Virus record (IMG/VR): IMGVR_UViG_3300044457_000021
Coordinates: 1 to 40,888 of that record
Reading direction: 5' to 3' (one strand)
Origin: a virus
Length of the DNA: 40,888 nucleotides
The notes under the pieces were generated by a model. It was not told the origin of the DNA, searched no databases, and worked only from the letters and a program-made list of their open reading frames with translations. Shown piece by piece: positions 1 to 13,948 of the stretch (the first letter of the stretch is position 1; each line of letters starts with the position of its first letter). A program made the position numbers and the translations under genes.

Positions 1-450
1 CTACCCGGTTTTTCTATTGTCCTCTCCGTCGTCCCGCTCATCAATCACAGGGAACTTGCGACGCCTGCGTGATTTTTGATCGATAACACAGCGGGCAATA
101 GCTATCACTTCCTCCCAATCATCAGCCGACAATTCCTGACCTGCGCCAAAAAAAGCGGTGCGGGTTTCCGACAGGTTGCCCTTCTTCTTACCGCGTGCGA
201 CGTCAAAAATATCGTCCTCTGGGACTTGAAGTCCCTTCGCAAGCGCCTGCAATGTCTCCACTTTTACAGCTCGCGTCTTACCGCTGAGGATGTCGCTAAT
301 CGTTGGGCTACTAACTCCGCTACGACGCGCGACCTCCCTGTAAGTCATTTGTCGGTCGTTTGCGACGCGTCTCACGTAGTCAGCGAGTTTTTCCTGCTCG
401 GTATGCACAGCAGTTTGTTTACTACAACTTGCGTTCGACGCACCTAACAT
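1..450 (-). CDS. XRE-family helix-turn-helix repressor (CI-like)
   Basis: This is probably the lysogeny repressor. A typical XRE HTH domain occupies the middle third, with the run MTYREVARRSGVSSPTISD and then a stabilising helix; the C-terminal 60 residues are charged and carry no LexA/CI-type serine protease residues, so it is not a self-cleaving repressor. The gene is transcribed away from the Cro-like gene, the standard arrangement for a phage switch. The start is uncertain. ATG at 450 is chosen because an ATG at 483 would put both operator palindromes (430-442, 452-463) inside the coding sequence; neither has a good ribosome-binding site. A GTG just before the HTH (near 408) is also possible. 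The stop codon is at the window edge, so the gene is complete at its 3' end. Confidence 0.8.
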   Translation of the reverse strand: MLGASNASCSKQTAVHTEQEKLADYVRRVANDRQMTYREVARRSGVSSPTISDILSGKTRAVKVETLQALAKGLQVPEDDIFDVARGKKKGNLSETRTAFFGAGQELSADDWEEVIAIARCVIDQKSRRRRKFPVIDERDDGEDNRKTG

Positions 451-505
451 TTGCGTAGGCGCACCTAAAAAAGTAGTTGACATGTATAAATGGTAAGTGT
501 ACCTT
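430..505. promoter_or_regulatory. Phage switch operators and divergent promoter region
   Basis: Two palindromes lie 22 bp apart: TGCGTTCGACGCA (430-442) and TGCGTAGGCGCA (452-463). Both are part of a longer direct repeat, TTGCGT plus a short spacer plus CGCACCTAA. To their right is a perfect -35 box TTGACA (477-482) with a weak -10 candidate TACCTT at 500-505 after 17 bp; a better-looking TATAAA at 485-490 has no matching -35. The spacing fits two operators bound by the repressor and/or the Cro-like protein. The operator call rests on symmetry and position only. Confidence 0.5.
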
Positions 506-528
506 CCACGGCGCAAGGAGAACCGAGC

Positions 529-762
529 ATGTACAGAAACGAAAAAATCAGAGGTAAGCAAGCTGAACTCGGCTTATCGAACGAAGAGCTTGCCGCAAAA
601 GCTGGCGTCAATGTGAACACGGTCAGTGCAATAAGGCTGGGGAAGAGCGTGTCAATTACTTCGCTGACGGCCGTCGTAGGCGCCCTGGGCCTGACGATGG
701 CGGACGTGTTCGAAGAGAAGCCATCGGCAGAGCAGCCGCAAGCCGAGACGGTGGGGGCGTGA
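529..762 (+). CDS. Small XRE-family HTH protein (Cro-like)
   Basis: This 77-aa protein is almost entirely one XRE HTH domain (about residues 8-60, with NEELAAKAGVNVNTVSAI as the helix-turn-helix). It is divergent from the repressor and the first gene of the rightward operon, which suggests the Cro or CII-type role in the switch. The start ATG at 529 has AGGAG 8 nt upstream; a longer frame from GTG at 490 would run through the promoter region and is not preferred. The stop overlaps the next start (TGATG). The last 81 bp of the gene are duplicated at 1242-1324. Confidence 0.8.
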   Translation: MYRNEKIRGKQAELGLSNEELAAKAGVNVNTVSAIRLGKSVSITSLTAVVGALGLTMADVFEEKPSAEQPQAETVGA

Positions 763-2269: not shown

Positions 2270-2545
2270 AGAAGAGCCGAAGAGATCGGACAGGTTCATT
2301 GATATTTACGAAGGGCCGAAACGGGCCCCGTTACGTGAGGCGACACCTGCCAGCCGAGTCCTAAGCCTAGTCTTGGGGGGAGTGGTGTGACTGCCGGGGA
2401 GAGTACCGGCGCATAAGTTCTTTCCAGTTATGGGCTGTGCGGCGTGGAAGGGCACGCGGAGGTAACGGGCGTGCGAAACAGAAATGTTCGCCATTGCGTT
2501 AGCGGTTAGTTCGCAGCAAAGCAAGACAGACCGTCACTCGCCGTG
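2270..2545 (+). ncRNA. Candidate structured non-coding RNA
   Basis: Between the minus-strand gene start (2081) and the gene at 2633 there are 551 bases without a credible reading frame but with an unusual density of hairpins. Seen directly: GGTGGC/GCCACC closed by a CGAA loop (2159-2174); CCGA/TCGG (2277-2289); GGGCC/GGCCC (2313-2328); ACACC/GGTGT (2343-2388) enclosing CCTAAG/CTTGGG (2360-2377); GCCGG/CCGGC (2393-2410); CATAA/TTATG (2412-2432); GCACGC/GCGTGC (2452-2474); GAACA/TGTTC with a bulged A and a GAAA loop (2475-2489); TGCG/CGCA (2495-2515). Ordered, adjacent stems with GNRA-type loops resemble large phage RNAs. I cannot assign a family: no IscB-like, reverse transcriptase or maturase gene is nearby. 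Strand is assumed from the neighbours; the ends are approximate. Confidence 0.4.
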
Positions 2546-2632
2546 AGTAAACCGAGTCGGTGTCGAATCCGGCCACAGCCCACCCAGGGGAAAACTGAAT
2601 TTCTCAAAAGAATATTTCCGGAGGCTGAATCG

Positions 2633-3409
<777 letters not shown>

Positions 3410-5214: not shown

Positions 5215-6108
5215 GTGCCAAGTCCCTTTGTGGCTGTACCGGAGGAAGCCATGCGCCGCCGCCGAGAGCTGACGCAAGGGGCCTGGCATCTTTACGAAAC
5301 CTATTGCAGGTACCGAAACCGCGACACCGGCCGCTGCGATCCGGGTCTCGAAACGCTGGCGAGAGAGATGCAACGAACCTACACACACGTTTCGAATATG
5401 AAGTCCGAGCTGGTCGATCAAGGCTGGCTCAGGCGCGTCGGCCGACATGCCGTCGACCTGCTGGTGGGTCAGTTTGCGCCGCCCAAAATCAGTCCGCTCG
5501 TTAGGAATAATCCTAACGAAGAGGGTGTCCTCGTTAGGAAAAATCCTAACGAAGAGAATCCTTCGTTAGGAAAAATCCTAACGGCCGTTAGGAAAAATCC
5601 TAACGAGGAAATCGCGAGTCCTATTACAGCTGAACCAGTAGTTGAACCAGTAGCTGCTGCTGCTGCAACTGCGCCGCGCGACTGGCGAAGCGAGATCTGC
5701 GACGAGCGATGGATTGAACAGGTTAAGAGCGAAGGGGACTTTTCGACACAGCTTGTTGATTTCGTCTGGCGAAAGCTCCAGAGGAATTGTGAGCGCGAGG
5801 GAGTCGAGCCGACCAAGGGACGTTTTGATCATTGGTTGTCGACCGAGAGAGGAACGCCGCCAGTTCAGCCGACCTTGCCAGCAATGGGAGCTGACCTCGT
5901 GGCCGGCAACTTCGAACCTGGTACCAACCAGCGAGTACAAGCGCCGGATCCGGAATGCACCAGGTGTTTCGGTGCCGGAATGGAAGTTGTCCCAGGAAGA
6001 GGCGCACGGCGTTGCCAGTGTCGAAGCGTCGAAGTCGAACAACCGACGAATGAAGAAATTGAATCCGTGATCGCGGACGATCGCGAACAAAAAAAGGAGA
6101 CCGGATGA
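5215..6108 (+). CDS. Replication initiator, lambda O-like, with iterons in its gene
   Basis: Residues 5-85 form a winged-helix domain of the phage replication-protein type (FVAVPEEAM; GAWHLYETYCRYRNRDTG; LETLAREMQRTYTHVSNM; LVDQGWLRR). Residues 95-133 are a linker encoded by four palindromic iterons and therefore repetitive (VRKNPNEE). The middle is a helical domain of unknown fold, and the C-terminus carries a zinc-binding pattern CTRCFGAG with a later CQC. Lambda O has the same plan: DNA-binding N-domain, origin inside the gene, partner-binding C-domain. GTG 5215 is chosen because the FVAVP segment belongs to the domain; ATG 5251 has a better ribosome-binding site (GGAGG) and is the alternative. 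No DnaC/P-like loader or helicase is recognisable downstream. The stop overlaps the ParB-like gene. Confidence 0.75.
   Translation: MPSPFVAVPEEAMRRRRELTQGAWHLYETYCRYRNRDTGRCDPGLETLAREMQRTYTHVSNMKSELVDQGWLRRVGRHAVDLLVGQFAPPKISPLVRNNPNEEGVLVRKNPNEENPSLGKILTAVRKNPNEEIASPITAEPVVEPVAAAAATAPRDWRSEICDERWIEQVKSEGDFSTQLVDFVWRKLQRNCEREGVEPTKGRFDHWLSTERGTPPVQPTLPAMGADLVAGNFEPGTNQRVQAPDPECTRCFGAGMEVVPGRGARRCQCRSVEVEQPTNEEIESVIADDREQKKETG
5498..5605. repeat. Four palindromic iterons, candidate replication origin
   Basis: The palindrome CGTTAGGAAAAATCCTAACG occurs at 5499-5518 (centre ATAA instead of AAAA), 5532-5551, 5564-5583 and 5586-5605. Arms are 8 bp, extended to 9 in copies 1 and 2. Start-to-start distances are 33, 32 and 22 bp, close to 3, 3 and 2 helix turns, so all four sites face the same side of the DNA. 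They lie inside the initiator gene, as the lambda origin iterons do. No strongly AT-rich unwinding stretch is obvious on either side. Confidence 0.85.
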
Positions 6109-7091
6109 GTGCCCTCCAAAATGAAATCAATGCAAGGGTCGATGGTCTGAGCGGTTCAGAAACGTTCAAGGTGGGCCAGCCAACTCGTCACGTGAATGCG
6201 CTTCGCCCGCATCCGGAAAACCCGCGTGGCCCGATCGACAAAACCGAGCCGGCCATCATTGAGCTGCGCGATTCGATCATCGCTAAAGGAATTCTTCAGC
6301 CGTTGGTTGTTACGAGCGATAACCTGATTCTGGCCGGACATCGGCGCCGTGTCGCCTCGAGAATGGCCTATGACGAGACAGCCGACGAGAAGTACCTGAG
6401 TGTGCCGGTCACGATCCGTGATCTCAAACCGAACGAGGACGCTCAGGAGCTCATGCTTCACGAAAACATGCAGCGGCGATCGCTAAGCCTGCTGGAAGAA
6501 GCTCGTGCATTTTTCGGAATCATGGACCGGCACCGACTTTCAGTAATGGACCTGGCGCGCCGGCTTTCAGTTCCCACCCCAACCGTTTCAGGACGATTGC
6601 AGATACTGAAGCTCGAGCCGGAAGTTCAGGCGATGTTCGAAGCCGACTTGCTGCCGATCACAGCCGCGGGTTCGCTAGCCCGCGTCGAAGACAAAGCGAA
6701 ACAGCTGAAGCTGGCGAACATGGTTGCCCGCAAGCAACTCACCTCTCCTGCGCTAAAAGACCTGGTGGCTAAGGAGTGCGGCGGGAAACAAAGCGAGTCT
6801 ATTTCAAGTCCTGCAGTTCAGGATCGAATCCAGCGAAGCTTGTCCCACCAACCAGCGCGGCGGCCGGCGAGAGGGAAGAGTGAGCCCCCTGCGGGACGAC
6901 AGATGGAACCGACCCGAATGGAAGCCGTTGCGGCTCTCGATCGGTCGAGCACCAAATCCATCAAGCTTTTCAATATCAAGCTGCTGACCGAAACCGTTTG
7001 CACCGCGTGCGGAATGCTGGAGAACCCGGATGTCTGCCGTACTTGTCCGCTGCCCAGGCTGATCATGGGAATCGTCGGGAGATCGATCTGA
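6105..7091 (+). CDS. ParB/Spo0J-like DNA-binding protein
   Basis: The N-terminal ParB domain is clear: NALRPHPENPR, GILQPLVV, the GHRRR box (residues 78-82) that belongs to the nucleotide-binding site of ParB CTPases, and the ENMQRRSLSLLEEA motif (120-133). A HTH follows (MDLARRLSVPTPTVSGRL, about 147-165). The C-terminus differs from partition ParB proteins: a disordered linker and a zinc-like cluster (CTACG and CRTC, about residues 296-315). No ParA gene is present. It overlaps the initiator gene by ATGA and the next gene by TGATG. It may be a partition protein or a phage transcription regulator using the same fold. A TCACGTGA palindrome, the core of chromosomal parS sites, is at 6188-6195. 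Confidence 0.8.
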   Translation: MSALQNEINARVDGLSGSETFKVGQPTRHVNALRPHPENPRGPIDKTEPAIIELRDSIIAKGILQPLVVTSDNLILAGHRRRVASRMAYDETADEKYLSVPVTIRDLKPNEDAQELMLHENMQRRSLSLLEEARAFFGIMDRHRLSVMDLARRLSVPTPTVSGRLQILKLEPEVQAMFEADLLPITAAGSLARVEDKAKQLKLANMVARKQLTSPALKDLVAKECGGKQSESISSPAVQDRIQRSLSHQPARRPARGKSEPPAGRQMEPTRMEAVAALDRSSTKSIKLFNIKLLTETVCTACGMLENPDVCRTCPLPRLIMGIVGRSI

Positions 7092-12119: not shown

Positions 12120-12650
12120 ATGAAAAAGAAGAAACCTCTAAATCGGAGATTGGTTAACGGCGGCGATCCGGAGAAACCGTTCGAGGTACCGCTGCAGGTT
12201 GCTTTCGTCGACGAAGCGACTAATGAGCTGAACGACTATTTGAGTTCTACCCAGTTGCGCGAGTTGGCGTCGGCGCTGATCGAGCGCTACGAAGAGTTTC
12301 AACACCTGCAGGACTTCAGCCTGGCCTATTTGTGGAAACGCAAGGGACCGTCATCCAGCGGCCACAACACTCTCGGTAAATGTCAGCGGCTCACCGGCAT
12401 GCTGAAGTTCTTTGCAAAGTACGACTTCGTTATCTGGCTCTCCGCCGATCATTGCCATGGCTTGACCGCGTTTCAAATCGAAGCCCTGGTATTTCACGAG
12501 ATGATGCACGCCGGCGCCGAAGATGGAAAGCCGGCTATTCGGAAACACGACTGGGAAGGGTTCGCCGCGGAGGTCCACAACTACGGTGAGTGGAAGTCCG
12601 ACATGACGGCAATCGGCGACGCATTTCAGTTCTCGTTGTTTGGAGGCTAA
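12120..12650 (+). CDS. Putative phage metallopeptidase (HExxH)
   Basis: The 176-aa protein contains HEMMH at residues 126-130 preceded by a hydrophobic helix (FQIEALVF), the zinc-metallopeptidase signature, and the surrounding sequence fits the putative phage metallopeptidase family (LAYLWKRKG, TLGKCQR, FVIWLSADH, HDWEGFAAEVHNYGEW). In this family no peptidase activity is established as far as I know. The later histidine and aspartate in KHDWEGFAAEVHNYG may complete the zinc site. The next gene starts 7 nt after its stop, with a ribosome-binding site inside this gene. Confidence 0.75.
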   Translation: MKKKKPLNRRLVNGGDPEKPFEVPLQVAFVDEATNELNDYLSSTQLRELASALIERYEEFQHLQDFSLAYLWKRKGPSSSGHNTLGKCQRLTGMLKFFAKYDFVIWLSADHCHGLTAFQIEALVFHEMMHAGAEDGKPAIRKHDWEGFAAEVHNYGEWKSDMTAIGDAFQFSLFGG

Positions 12651-12657
12651 TTCTAAC

Positions 12658-13269
12658 GTGGATCTCAAACAGGCCAGTGCGATCGCTGAACATTATCGTG
12701 AAGAGATGCGACCGTATGTCGAGCGAATTCAGATTGCCGGCAGCGTTCGCCGCGGGTGTCCCCAGGTCAGAGACATAGAGCTGGTCGCTATCCCAAAATT
12801 CGAACCAATTCCACACGACGGAGCGAGTCTCTTCGACAACCGGACAGAAGAGGAATCCTTGAACCTTCTTCACCGGTGGGCTACGCGCGGGGAAGGTACC
12901 AGCATTCGATGGATCAAACCGGGAACTTCAGAAATCGTCACCTGGGAGCCAAAGCCCGACGGGAAGTACTGGCGAGGCCTGTTGAGGGAGGGGATCAAGC
13001 TGGATCTATTTTTGTGCAGGCGAGAGAACTGGGGATTGATTCTTGCCATCCGGACCGGGTCCGCGGAATTCAGCCAGGCTCTTGTCACTCACGCGCGCGA
13101 TATCGGAATGCCTTCGATCGAGGGCTATCTGACAAACGCCGGCCAGCGGATTGTTACCCCCGAGGAGCACGACGTCTTCGACCAGCTGCAGCTCAACTAT
13201 GTCGATCCTCTGGACAGGACCGGCCGGGAGAAATTGCGACATCGAAATGGAGGGTTTAAGCATGCTTGA
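12658..13269 (+). CDS. DNA polymerase X-like nucleotidyltransferase
   Basis: The Pol beta superfamily signature is clear: GSVRRG (residues 28-33) followed by the metal-binding pair D39 and E41 (VRDIELVAIP) and a third carboxylate D116 (GIKLDLFLC). Near the C-terminus, NWGLILAIRTGSAEFSQALV is as in phage and Pol X palm domains. The finger, lyase and HhH domains of full Pol X are absent; 203 aa is one nucleotidyltransferase domain. It might repair or tail DNA or modify a protein or RNA; the substrate is unknown. GTG 12658 is chosen because GGAGG lies 11 nt upstream. The next gene starts inside its 3' end. Confidence 0.75.
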   Translation: MDLKQASAIAEHYREEMRPYVERIQIAGSVRRGCPQVRDIELVAIPKFEPIPHDGASLFDNRTEEESLNLLHRWATRGEGTSIRWIKPGTSEIVTWEPKPDGKYWRGLLREGIKLDLFLCRRENWGLILAIRTGSAEFSQALVTHARDIGMPSIEGYLTNAGQRIVTPEEHDVFDQLQLNYVDPLDRTGREKLRHRNGGFKHA

Positions 13270-13948
13270 TTATCGACATGAGTCTCTTGAAGTCTGGCCG
13301 AAGGACGTCGTGTGTACGGCGCCCGGTGACCGTCGCCATTCACCCTTTCGTTCTACCTGGAGCGCATCGTTGAAAGTCCTCGAGCGCGAGCTCTTGCATC
13401 TTGAAGCACATCCCGATCGCACTCGCTTCAAGACATTCCACCGACCCAGCGTGGTGCGGCGCGACGGCCAGCTCAGGTCCGATGCGCCGATGCCGGATAA
13501 CCCCGGCGTGATACTGACTTTCGAGGTCTTTCAGGAGAACGGAACATTTAATGACCGAGGGCAACGCCTGGGACGCTATGTGCCGGTTCAGTTCGAATGC
13601 GACACCTTCACTCATTGGAAAGACAACGCCCGCGCGATCGCGCTTGCTCTTGAGGCGCTGCGCAAAGTCGAGAGGTACGGTGTTGCGCGTGCGAGGGCCG
13701 TCGAGGTTGGGCGGAAACAACTGCCCGCGCATGTTGGCCAGGGCCTGACCATTGATGATGCGTTAGCCGTTCTTTCGAAGTTCTCCGGACGCACAGTCGC
13801 TGAGTTGAGGAATTCACCAGGGCTTATCAAAGCGGCCCACCGAAAGGCGTCGATTGAAGCGCATCCCGATCGGGGCGGGAATCACGAGGACGCGGTAAAG
13901 ATCAACGTCGCGTACGAAACGCTTAAAGCGGCCTTGGAACTCACATGA
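13262..13948 (+). CDS. J-domain-like phage protein
   Basis: The C-terminal 65 residues (about 163-228) look like a J domain: a first helix (IDDALAVLSKFSGRTVAELR), then a helix with the HPD motif (HRKASIEAHPDRGGN) and a last helix (DAVKINVAYETLKAAL). HPD is the residue set that stimulates the ATPase of DnaK/Hsp70. The N-terminal 160 residues are a separate, beta-rich domain that I do not recognise; several phages have this combination. GGAGGG lies 8 nt before ATG 13262. It overlaps the Pol X-like gene at the start and the zinc-finger gene at its end. Confidence 0.7.
   Translation: MLDYRHESLEVWPKDVVCTAPGDRRHSPFRSTWSASLKVLERELLHLEAHPDRTRFKTFHRPSVVRRDGQLRSDAPMPDNPGVILTFEVFQENGTFNDRGQRLGRYVPVQFECDTFTHWKDNARAIALALEALRKVERYGVARARAVEVGRKQLPAHVGQGLTIDDALAVLSKFSGRTVAELRNSPGLIKAAHRKASIEAHPDRGGNHEDAVKINVAYETLKAALELT

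Follow-up and report, generated by a model that had tools for sequence, protein, structure and literature searches.

A putative lambda/pSK41-type replication origin within the linker codons of a phage initiator gene

In bacteriophage lambda, the initiator gene O encodes an N-terminal winged helix-turn-helix (wHTH) domain, then a flexible linker coded by the DNA sites of the origin, and then a C-terminal part (PMC7466680). A comparable arrangement is described for the RepA_N plasmid pSK41, where the N-terminal domain of Rep binds four boxes located centrally inside rep and the origin-coded linker is dispensable; in the pPR9 hybrid, the HTH_36 (pfam13730) domain and the origin form an exchangeable cassette (PMC5703833). 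We analyzed a locus with four palindromes in an IMG/VR virus record of 40,888 bases, referred to as the window. The record contains terminase, portal, head and tape-measure genes and an integrase, and its right end carries tRNA-Lys and purA, which makes a prophage with flanking host DNA the most likely reading.

Among the closest described parallels is ori-lambda (NC_001416), which like the window has four inverted-repeat iterons with an A-rich center where the initiator linker is coded. The 18-bp lambda iterons fall in all three frames and differ from the window sites in sequence, in their shorter and less perfect arms (6 versus 8 bp) and in spacing (20, 24 and 23 versus 33, 32 and 22 bp). 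An earlier analysis of this DNA, here called the original prediction, had proposed a lambda-like layout with different sequence, symmetry and spacing. Layout, sequence and spacing were upheld, but symmetry is not a difference, because in lambda, too, the sites are inverted repeats around an A-rich center. The likeness of layout covers the iterons in the linker, but other parts of the lambda module were not found: in lambda the sites adjoin a strong AT-rich tract and P is the neighboring gene, and neither was recognized in the window, where no strong AT-rich tract was found beside the array (the right flank is mildly AT-rich), the gene directly after the initiator is ParB-like rather than a P-type helicase loader, and none of the downstream genes scanned was recognized as a helicase loader or helicase. 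The window initiator itself resembles lambda O weakly. With pSK41 it shares four sites inside the initiator gene and an N-terminal winged HTH, whereas pSK41 and pPR9 are staphylococcal plasmids with other DNA sites and another C-terminal domain; moreover, pPR9 has an HTH_36 domain, to which the window initiator has only a sub-threshold match (0.0084; 16.3 bits against a Pfam gathering score of 25).

Four palindromic sites and the initiator that contains them

A pattern search located four 20-bp palindromes (Table 1) in an ORF on the plus strand, within residues about 95–131 of 297. All four share the consensus CGTTAGGA-N4-TCCTAACG with perfect 8-bp arms, as had been claimed; the arms lengthen to 9 bp at sites 1 and 2, which at site 1 explains the start at 5498 given earlier. 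The center is AAAA at sites 2–4 and ATAA at site 1, so that the AAAA center originally assigned to all four applies to three. Dinucleotide shuffles of the window yielded a mean of 0.12 copies and a maximum of two, with four copies in 0/100, and no fifth copy was found in the 40,888 bases on both strands at ≤3 mismatches. Measured start-to-start spacings agreed with the predicted 33, 32 and 22 bp and correspond to 3.1, 3.0 and 2.1 helical turns at 10.5 bp per turn. The sites are, therefore, in phase only approximately: roughly three, three and two turns separate them, but the non-integral values accumulate to an angular drift of ~100° at site 4.

Table 1 Features of the initiator locus (window coordinates)
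Feature	Position	Strand	Basis or description
Replication initiator gene	5215..6108	+	ORF, 297 aa, GTG start; profile matches; 66% identical relative in L005
N-terminal winged-helix DNA-binding domain (predicted), residues 10–82	5242..5460	+	AlphaFold2 model, residues 1–92
Putative iteron 1	5499..5518	.	CGTTAGGA-ATAA-TCCTAACG, translated V-R-N-N-P-N
Least stable 100-bp stretch of window	5500..5599	.	Nearest-neighbour energy, about 100th percentile
Putative iteron 2	5532..5551	.	CGTTAGGA-AAAA-TCCTAACG, translated V-R-K-N-P-N; present in L005
Putative iteron 3	5564..5583	.	DNA as iteron 2, other frame, translated L-G-K-I-L-T
Putative iteron 4	5586..5605	.	Translated V-R-K-N-P-N; 22-bp spacing also in L005
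Possible weak unwinding element right of array	5616..5655	.	97th percentile at 40 bp
Cys-rich C-terminal motif CxxC...CxC, residues 248–269	5956..6021	+	Alignment with L005, conserved there

The product of this ORF matched phrog_270 (replication initiation) at 8.8e-7 and, more weakly, the O-like PHROGs 391, 345 and 678 (9e-4 to 0.03), which supports its assignment as an O-like initiator. From an alignment of residues 1–92 with the domains of three other initiators, AlphaFold2 predicted a wHTH with confidence (pLDDT 82.8, pTM 0.76), with helices at residues 10–14, 21–33, 45–52 and 56–68 and wing strands at 72–74 and 80–82. This domain is 30% identical to the initiator HTH of the IMG/VR contig L274, and Foldseek matched the model to phage HTH proteins (best E 1.2e-4). 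In the PDB, the structure search gave no match below 1e-3; its matches are winged-helix proteins with replication initiators among them, and 4pta (‘Structure of MDR initiator’) had the top query TM-score of those listed (0.64, E = 0.07). A PDB sequence search returned no meaningful match. The full-length model, based on two sequences, was too poor to use (pLDDT 48, lowest in regions that include the linker), and the structural reading is confined to the 92-residue N-terminal domain. Directly after this domain come the four sites, in agreement with the proposal that they encode the linker.

The Cys-rich C-terminal part matched no Pfam family; its motif suggests a possible zinc site for protein contact. 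The contig L255 was rejected as a relative because only this short Cys motif matched, in a different gene: L255:4767-5102 encodes a small protein with the initiator’s C-terminal CFGAGME motif and adjoins another putative replication gene.

DNA constraint in the linker and the proposed origin

The codons of the sites point to a constraint at the DNA level. Sites 2 and 4 read GTT AGG AAA AAT CCT AAC (VRKNPN) and site 1 gives VRNNPN, whereas site 3, 32 bp after site 2, is read as TTA GGA AAA ATC CTA ACG (LGKILT), placing GKILT where sites 2 and 4 give RKNPN; the third reading frame across the palindrome includes a stop. AGG, TTA, CTA and CCT are among this phage’s rarest codons for their residues. 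In synonymous-codon shuffles, the 21-bp out-of-frame repeat was reproduced in 0/200 trials (P = 0.005). A protein 66% identical to the initiator, also matching phrog_270 (1.6e-4), is encoded in the IMG/VR contig L005 (IMGVR_UViG_3300044836_000082), which retains the last three sites with the 32/22 spacing and the frame switch at site 3, although the outermost base pair of site 3 is missing. The extra site of the window lies 33 bp (11 codons) upstream of the shared three. Residues shared by the two proteins have identical codons at 17/18 positions in the sites versus 80/158 outside (Fisher P = 2.5e-4); L005 is the only close relative and a single contig, so this conservation evidence amounts to one genome pair. 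On the strength of these synonymous codons, selection appears to act on the site DNA and not on the peptide. The predicted dictation of linker codons by the DNA is supported: site 3 changes frame, three palindromes are kept and their codons are conserved beyond protein need. As one DNA site gives two unrelated peptides in one linker, the demands of the DNA here clearly take precedence over those of the protein code.

We consider it highly probable that the four palindromes are the iterons of a theta-type origin of the lambda/pSK41 kind, nested in the gene of its own initiator and presumably bound by that protein’s N-terminal domain. In such a mechanism, the domain would bind each palindrome as a dimer, with the dimers roughly on one helix face across the four sites. 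Wrapping or bending by several dimers could then melt the DNA, either inside the low-stability array or immediately to its right. The window's least stable 100-bp stretch overlaps the array, and the L005 counterpart of the right-flank stretch lies at the 98.6th percentile; GC skew showed no clear turn at the iteron site. The C-terminal part would recruit the host helicase, directly or via a loader not recognized here, with the Cys-rich C-terminus (residues 248–269) as a candidate contact surface in helicase loading. Since binding domain and sites occupy one 400-bp stretch, the pair would stay together in recombination, and the linker would tolerate any peptide that the sites impose.

The most serious rival, which we nevertheless regard as unlikely, is that the palindromes form a parS-like centromere for the ParB-like protein encoded at 6105..7091. 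ParB proteins bind palindromes, sometimes several, as in phage N15, and this gene, with ParB_N and HTH_ParB domains and a TIGR00180 match, starts immediately after the initiator gene. However, the 29-kb L005 fragment keeps three sites with no ParB match and a different gene downstream, four other initiators with linker palindromes lie in records (also fragments) without ParB_N, no ParA was noticed, and the sites occupy the exact place where related initiators carry repeats. Perfect dyads of this size would suit operators through which the initiator or another HTH protein represses or tunes transcription of the replication gene. Two HTH regulator genes lie near the left end (1..561, minus strand; 490..762, plus strand), and similar TAGGA-N4-TCCTA pairs occur near CI/S24-type repressor genes in other contigs. 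Yet no site is in an intergenic or promoter region, there is no fifth copy near the HTH regulators, and an origin is the better account of four sites arrayed well inside a coding sequence, so that pure operator function seems improbable; autoregulation could coexist with origin function.

Two further readings concern the gene’s products. RNA hairpins acting in translation pausing, mRNA stability or processing are very improbable: the predicted folding of the transcript is much stronger than that of shuffled sequences (z = −8.6), but DNA palindromes give hairpins automatically, an Rfam search matched no family, and in the RAH1, LspM and GJ44 initiators the 20–24-bp repeats are direct and not strongly palindromic, a pattern that fits DNA binding but not hairpin formation. 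That the repeats serve the protein, as a recurring peptide such as RKNPN from which the DNA similarity simply follows, is hardly credible. Three of the four copies do share one frame and nearly the same peptide, but copy 3 has identical DNA in another frame, in L005 too, and the result against synonymous shuffles and the rare codons in the sites speak against it.

Linker repeats in other phage initiators

Several phage initiators share the order of elements seen in the window. Those of PHROG_270 type from Staphylococcus phage 77, Pseudomonas phage Skulduggery and Lactobacillus phage PMBT4 likewise have a wHTH followed by a repeat-coded linker, as do the initiators of the IMG/VR contigs L274, L296 and L301. 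Repeats of the PHROG_270 type are 20–24 bp apart, often palindromic with an AAAA center and frequently in different frames, whereas the window spacing is wider (32–33 bp) at two of three gaps. The linker palindromes of Skulduggery (CTTCGG-AAAA-CCGAAG) and PMBT4 (TTAACA-AAAA-TGTTAA) have arms that differ from those of the window, and several of these initiator genes adjoin a helicase loader or helicase gene.

We surveyed known-phage initiators picked by HTH domain alone, of which sixteen were chosen for diversity before their DNA was inspected; 15 were testable, one gene being too short. For each, the longest direct repeat at offsets of 15–60 that are not multiples of three was compared with synonymous-codon shuffles. 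Out-of-frame linker repeats were significant (P ≤ 0.01) in 11/15, three further initiators had significant in-frame repeats, and spacing was 20–24 bp in nearly all. Leptospira phage LE1 alone, with a related HTH, had no linker repeats, implying that initiators of the HTH kind can do without an origin of their own. The lambda iterons gave P = 0.010 in the same test. Unselected IMG/VR phrog_270 genes reached P ≤ 0.01 in three of six cases and control genes in 0/35 (Fisher about 1e-8 versus the HTH-picked initiators, in samples that include related phages and so fall short of full independence). In 4,200 linker bases there were 28 palindromes with a 4-base loop and arms of 5 or more, versus 17 in 12,519 bases elsewhere in the same genes (P = 1.6e-7). 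An A4/T4 loop was present in 5/28 linker palindromes of the HTH-picked genes, making the AAAA center recurrent but not universal.

The core GGAAAAATCC was tried as a universal iteron signal and rejected: pairs showed no clear enrichment across ~695 cellular genomes (six versus three for the reversed pattern), and many of 55 viral hits, with their short arms, seem to be chance matches. From these hits, we retained only the arrays with long arms that lie in initiators (L274, L291, L296 and L301).

The linker-nested repeat architecture is widespread among phage initiators. What is new in the window is the iteron sequence and its initiator; the architecture is already known. Our literature search, which reached few subscription papers, returned the lambda, Stx and pSK41 precedents and no systematic account of nested origins. 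Phage replication modules were reportedly treated broadly by Weigel and Seitz (2006), and for this reason the generalization is not claimed as new. It is an even call whether linker-nested origins with iteron-spelled linkers are the rule for a large superfamily of wHTH phage initiators across phyla, with a recurrent variable-arm/AAAA design that makes origin and initiator specificity predictable from sequence alone. If so, CGTTAGGA-A4-TCCTAACG would represent one new specificity of this iteron code. The survey also suggests a simple phage-origin finder based on out-of-frame repeats in wHTH initiator linkers.

Immediately after the iterons, the initiator genes of many Firmicute phages have AATAATACA-like repeats, translated as NNTSINNT, which are a candidate shared unwinding element; carriers are L323, L324, L325, L327, L328, L332 and L337, and the window lacks them.

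Related sequences and genome context

Among viral contigs, the same array was found in L005 only. Searches of viral contigs, GTDB contigs and known phages yielded no relative beyond L005, and a related-locus search of GTDB genomes gave none. The iteron had no match among known phages or plasmids, in line with the predicted new initiator/iteron pair. The locus offers a candidate origin with its initiator, ready for testing, from a phage group without a known-phage match.

Candidate hits from these searches were rejected. Eight GTDB-contig stretches proved to be 21-bp tandem arrays or isolated pairs and, as far as seen, not initiators. Tandem arrays of this spacing with TTAGGA-like palindromes occur in planctomycete and Chitinophagaceae MAG contigs (L126, L131 and L127), partly in short ORFs. 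TAGGA-N4-TCCTA pairs in viral contigs were mostly unrelated, comprising a non-coding family with 28-bp spacing and operator-like pairs. The former, TAGGA-N3-CTCCTATGC, occurs as a non-coding pair 28 bp apart in most viral contigs matched (most of L137–L252) and might serve as a late promoter or some other kind of control site; one such pair, L139:7310-7351, immediately precedes a short gene that looks structural and lies beside a ribonucleotide reductase gene. In L135, L148, L152, L172, L174, L188, L219 and L246, CI/S24-type repressor genes have pairs of GTAGGA-N4-TCCTAC, 31 bp apart, immediately before them or at their beginning; these look like conserved operator pairs.

Elsewhere in the window, an ORF at 2543-3409 contains a long alanine-rich AAADAAAS/AYWAAA tract and matches phrog_3416 (unknown function). 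Two early-region proteins are encoded further to the right, one with a DNA polymerase beta thumb domain (12640-13269) and one with a weak DnaJ-like C-terminus (13151-13948), similar to a protein encoded in L005.
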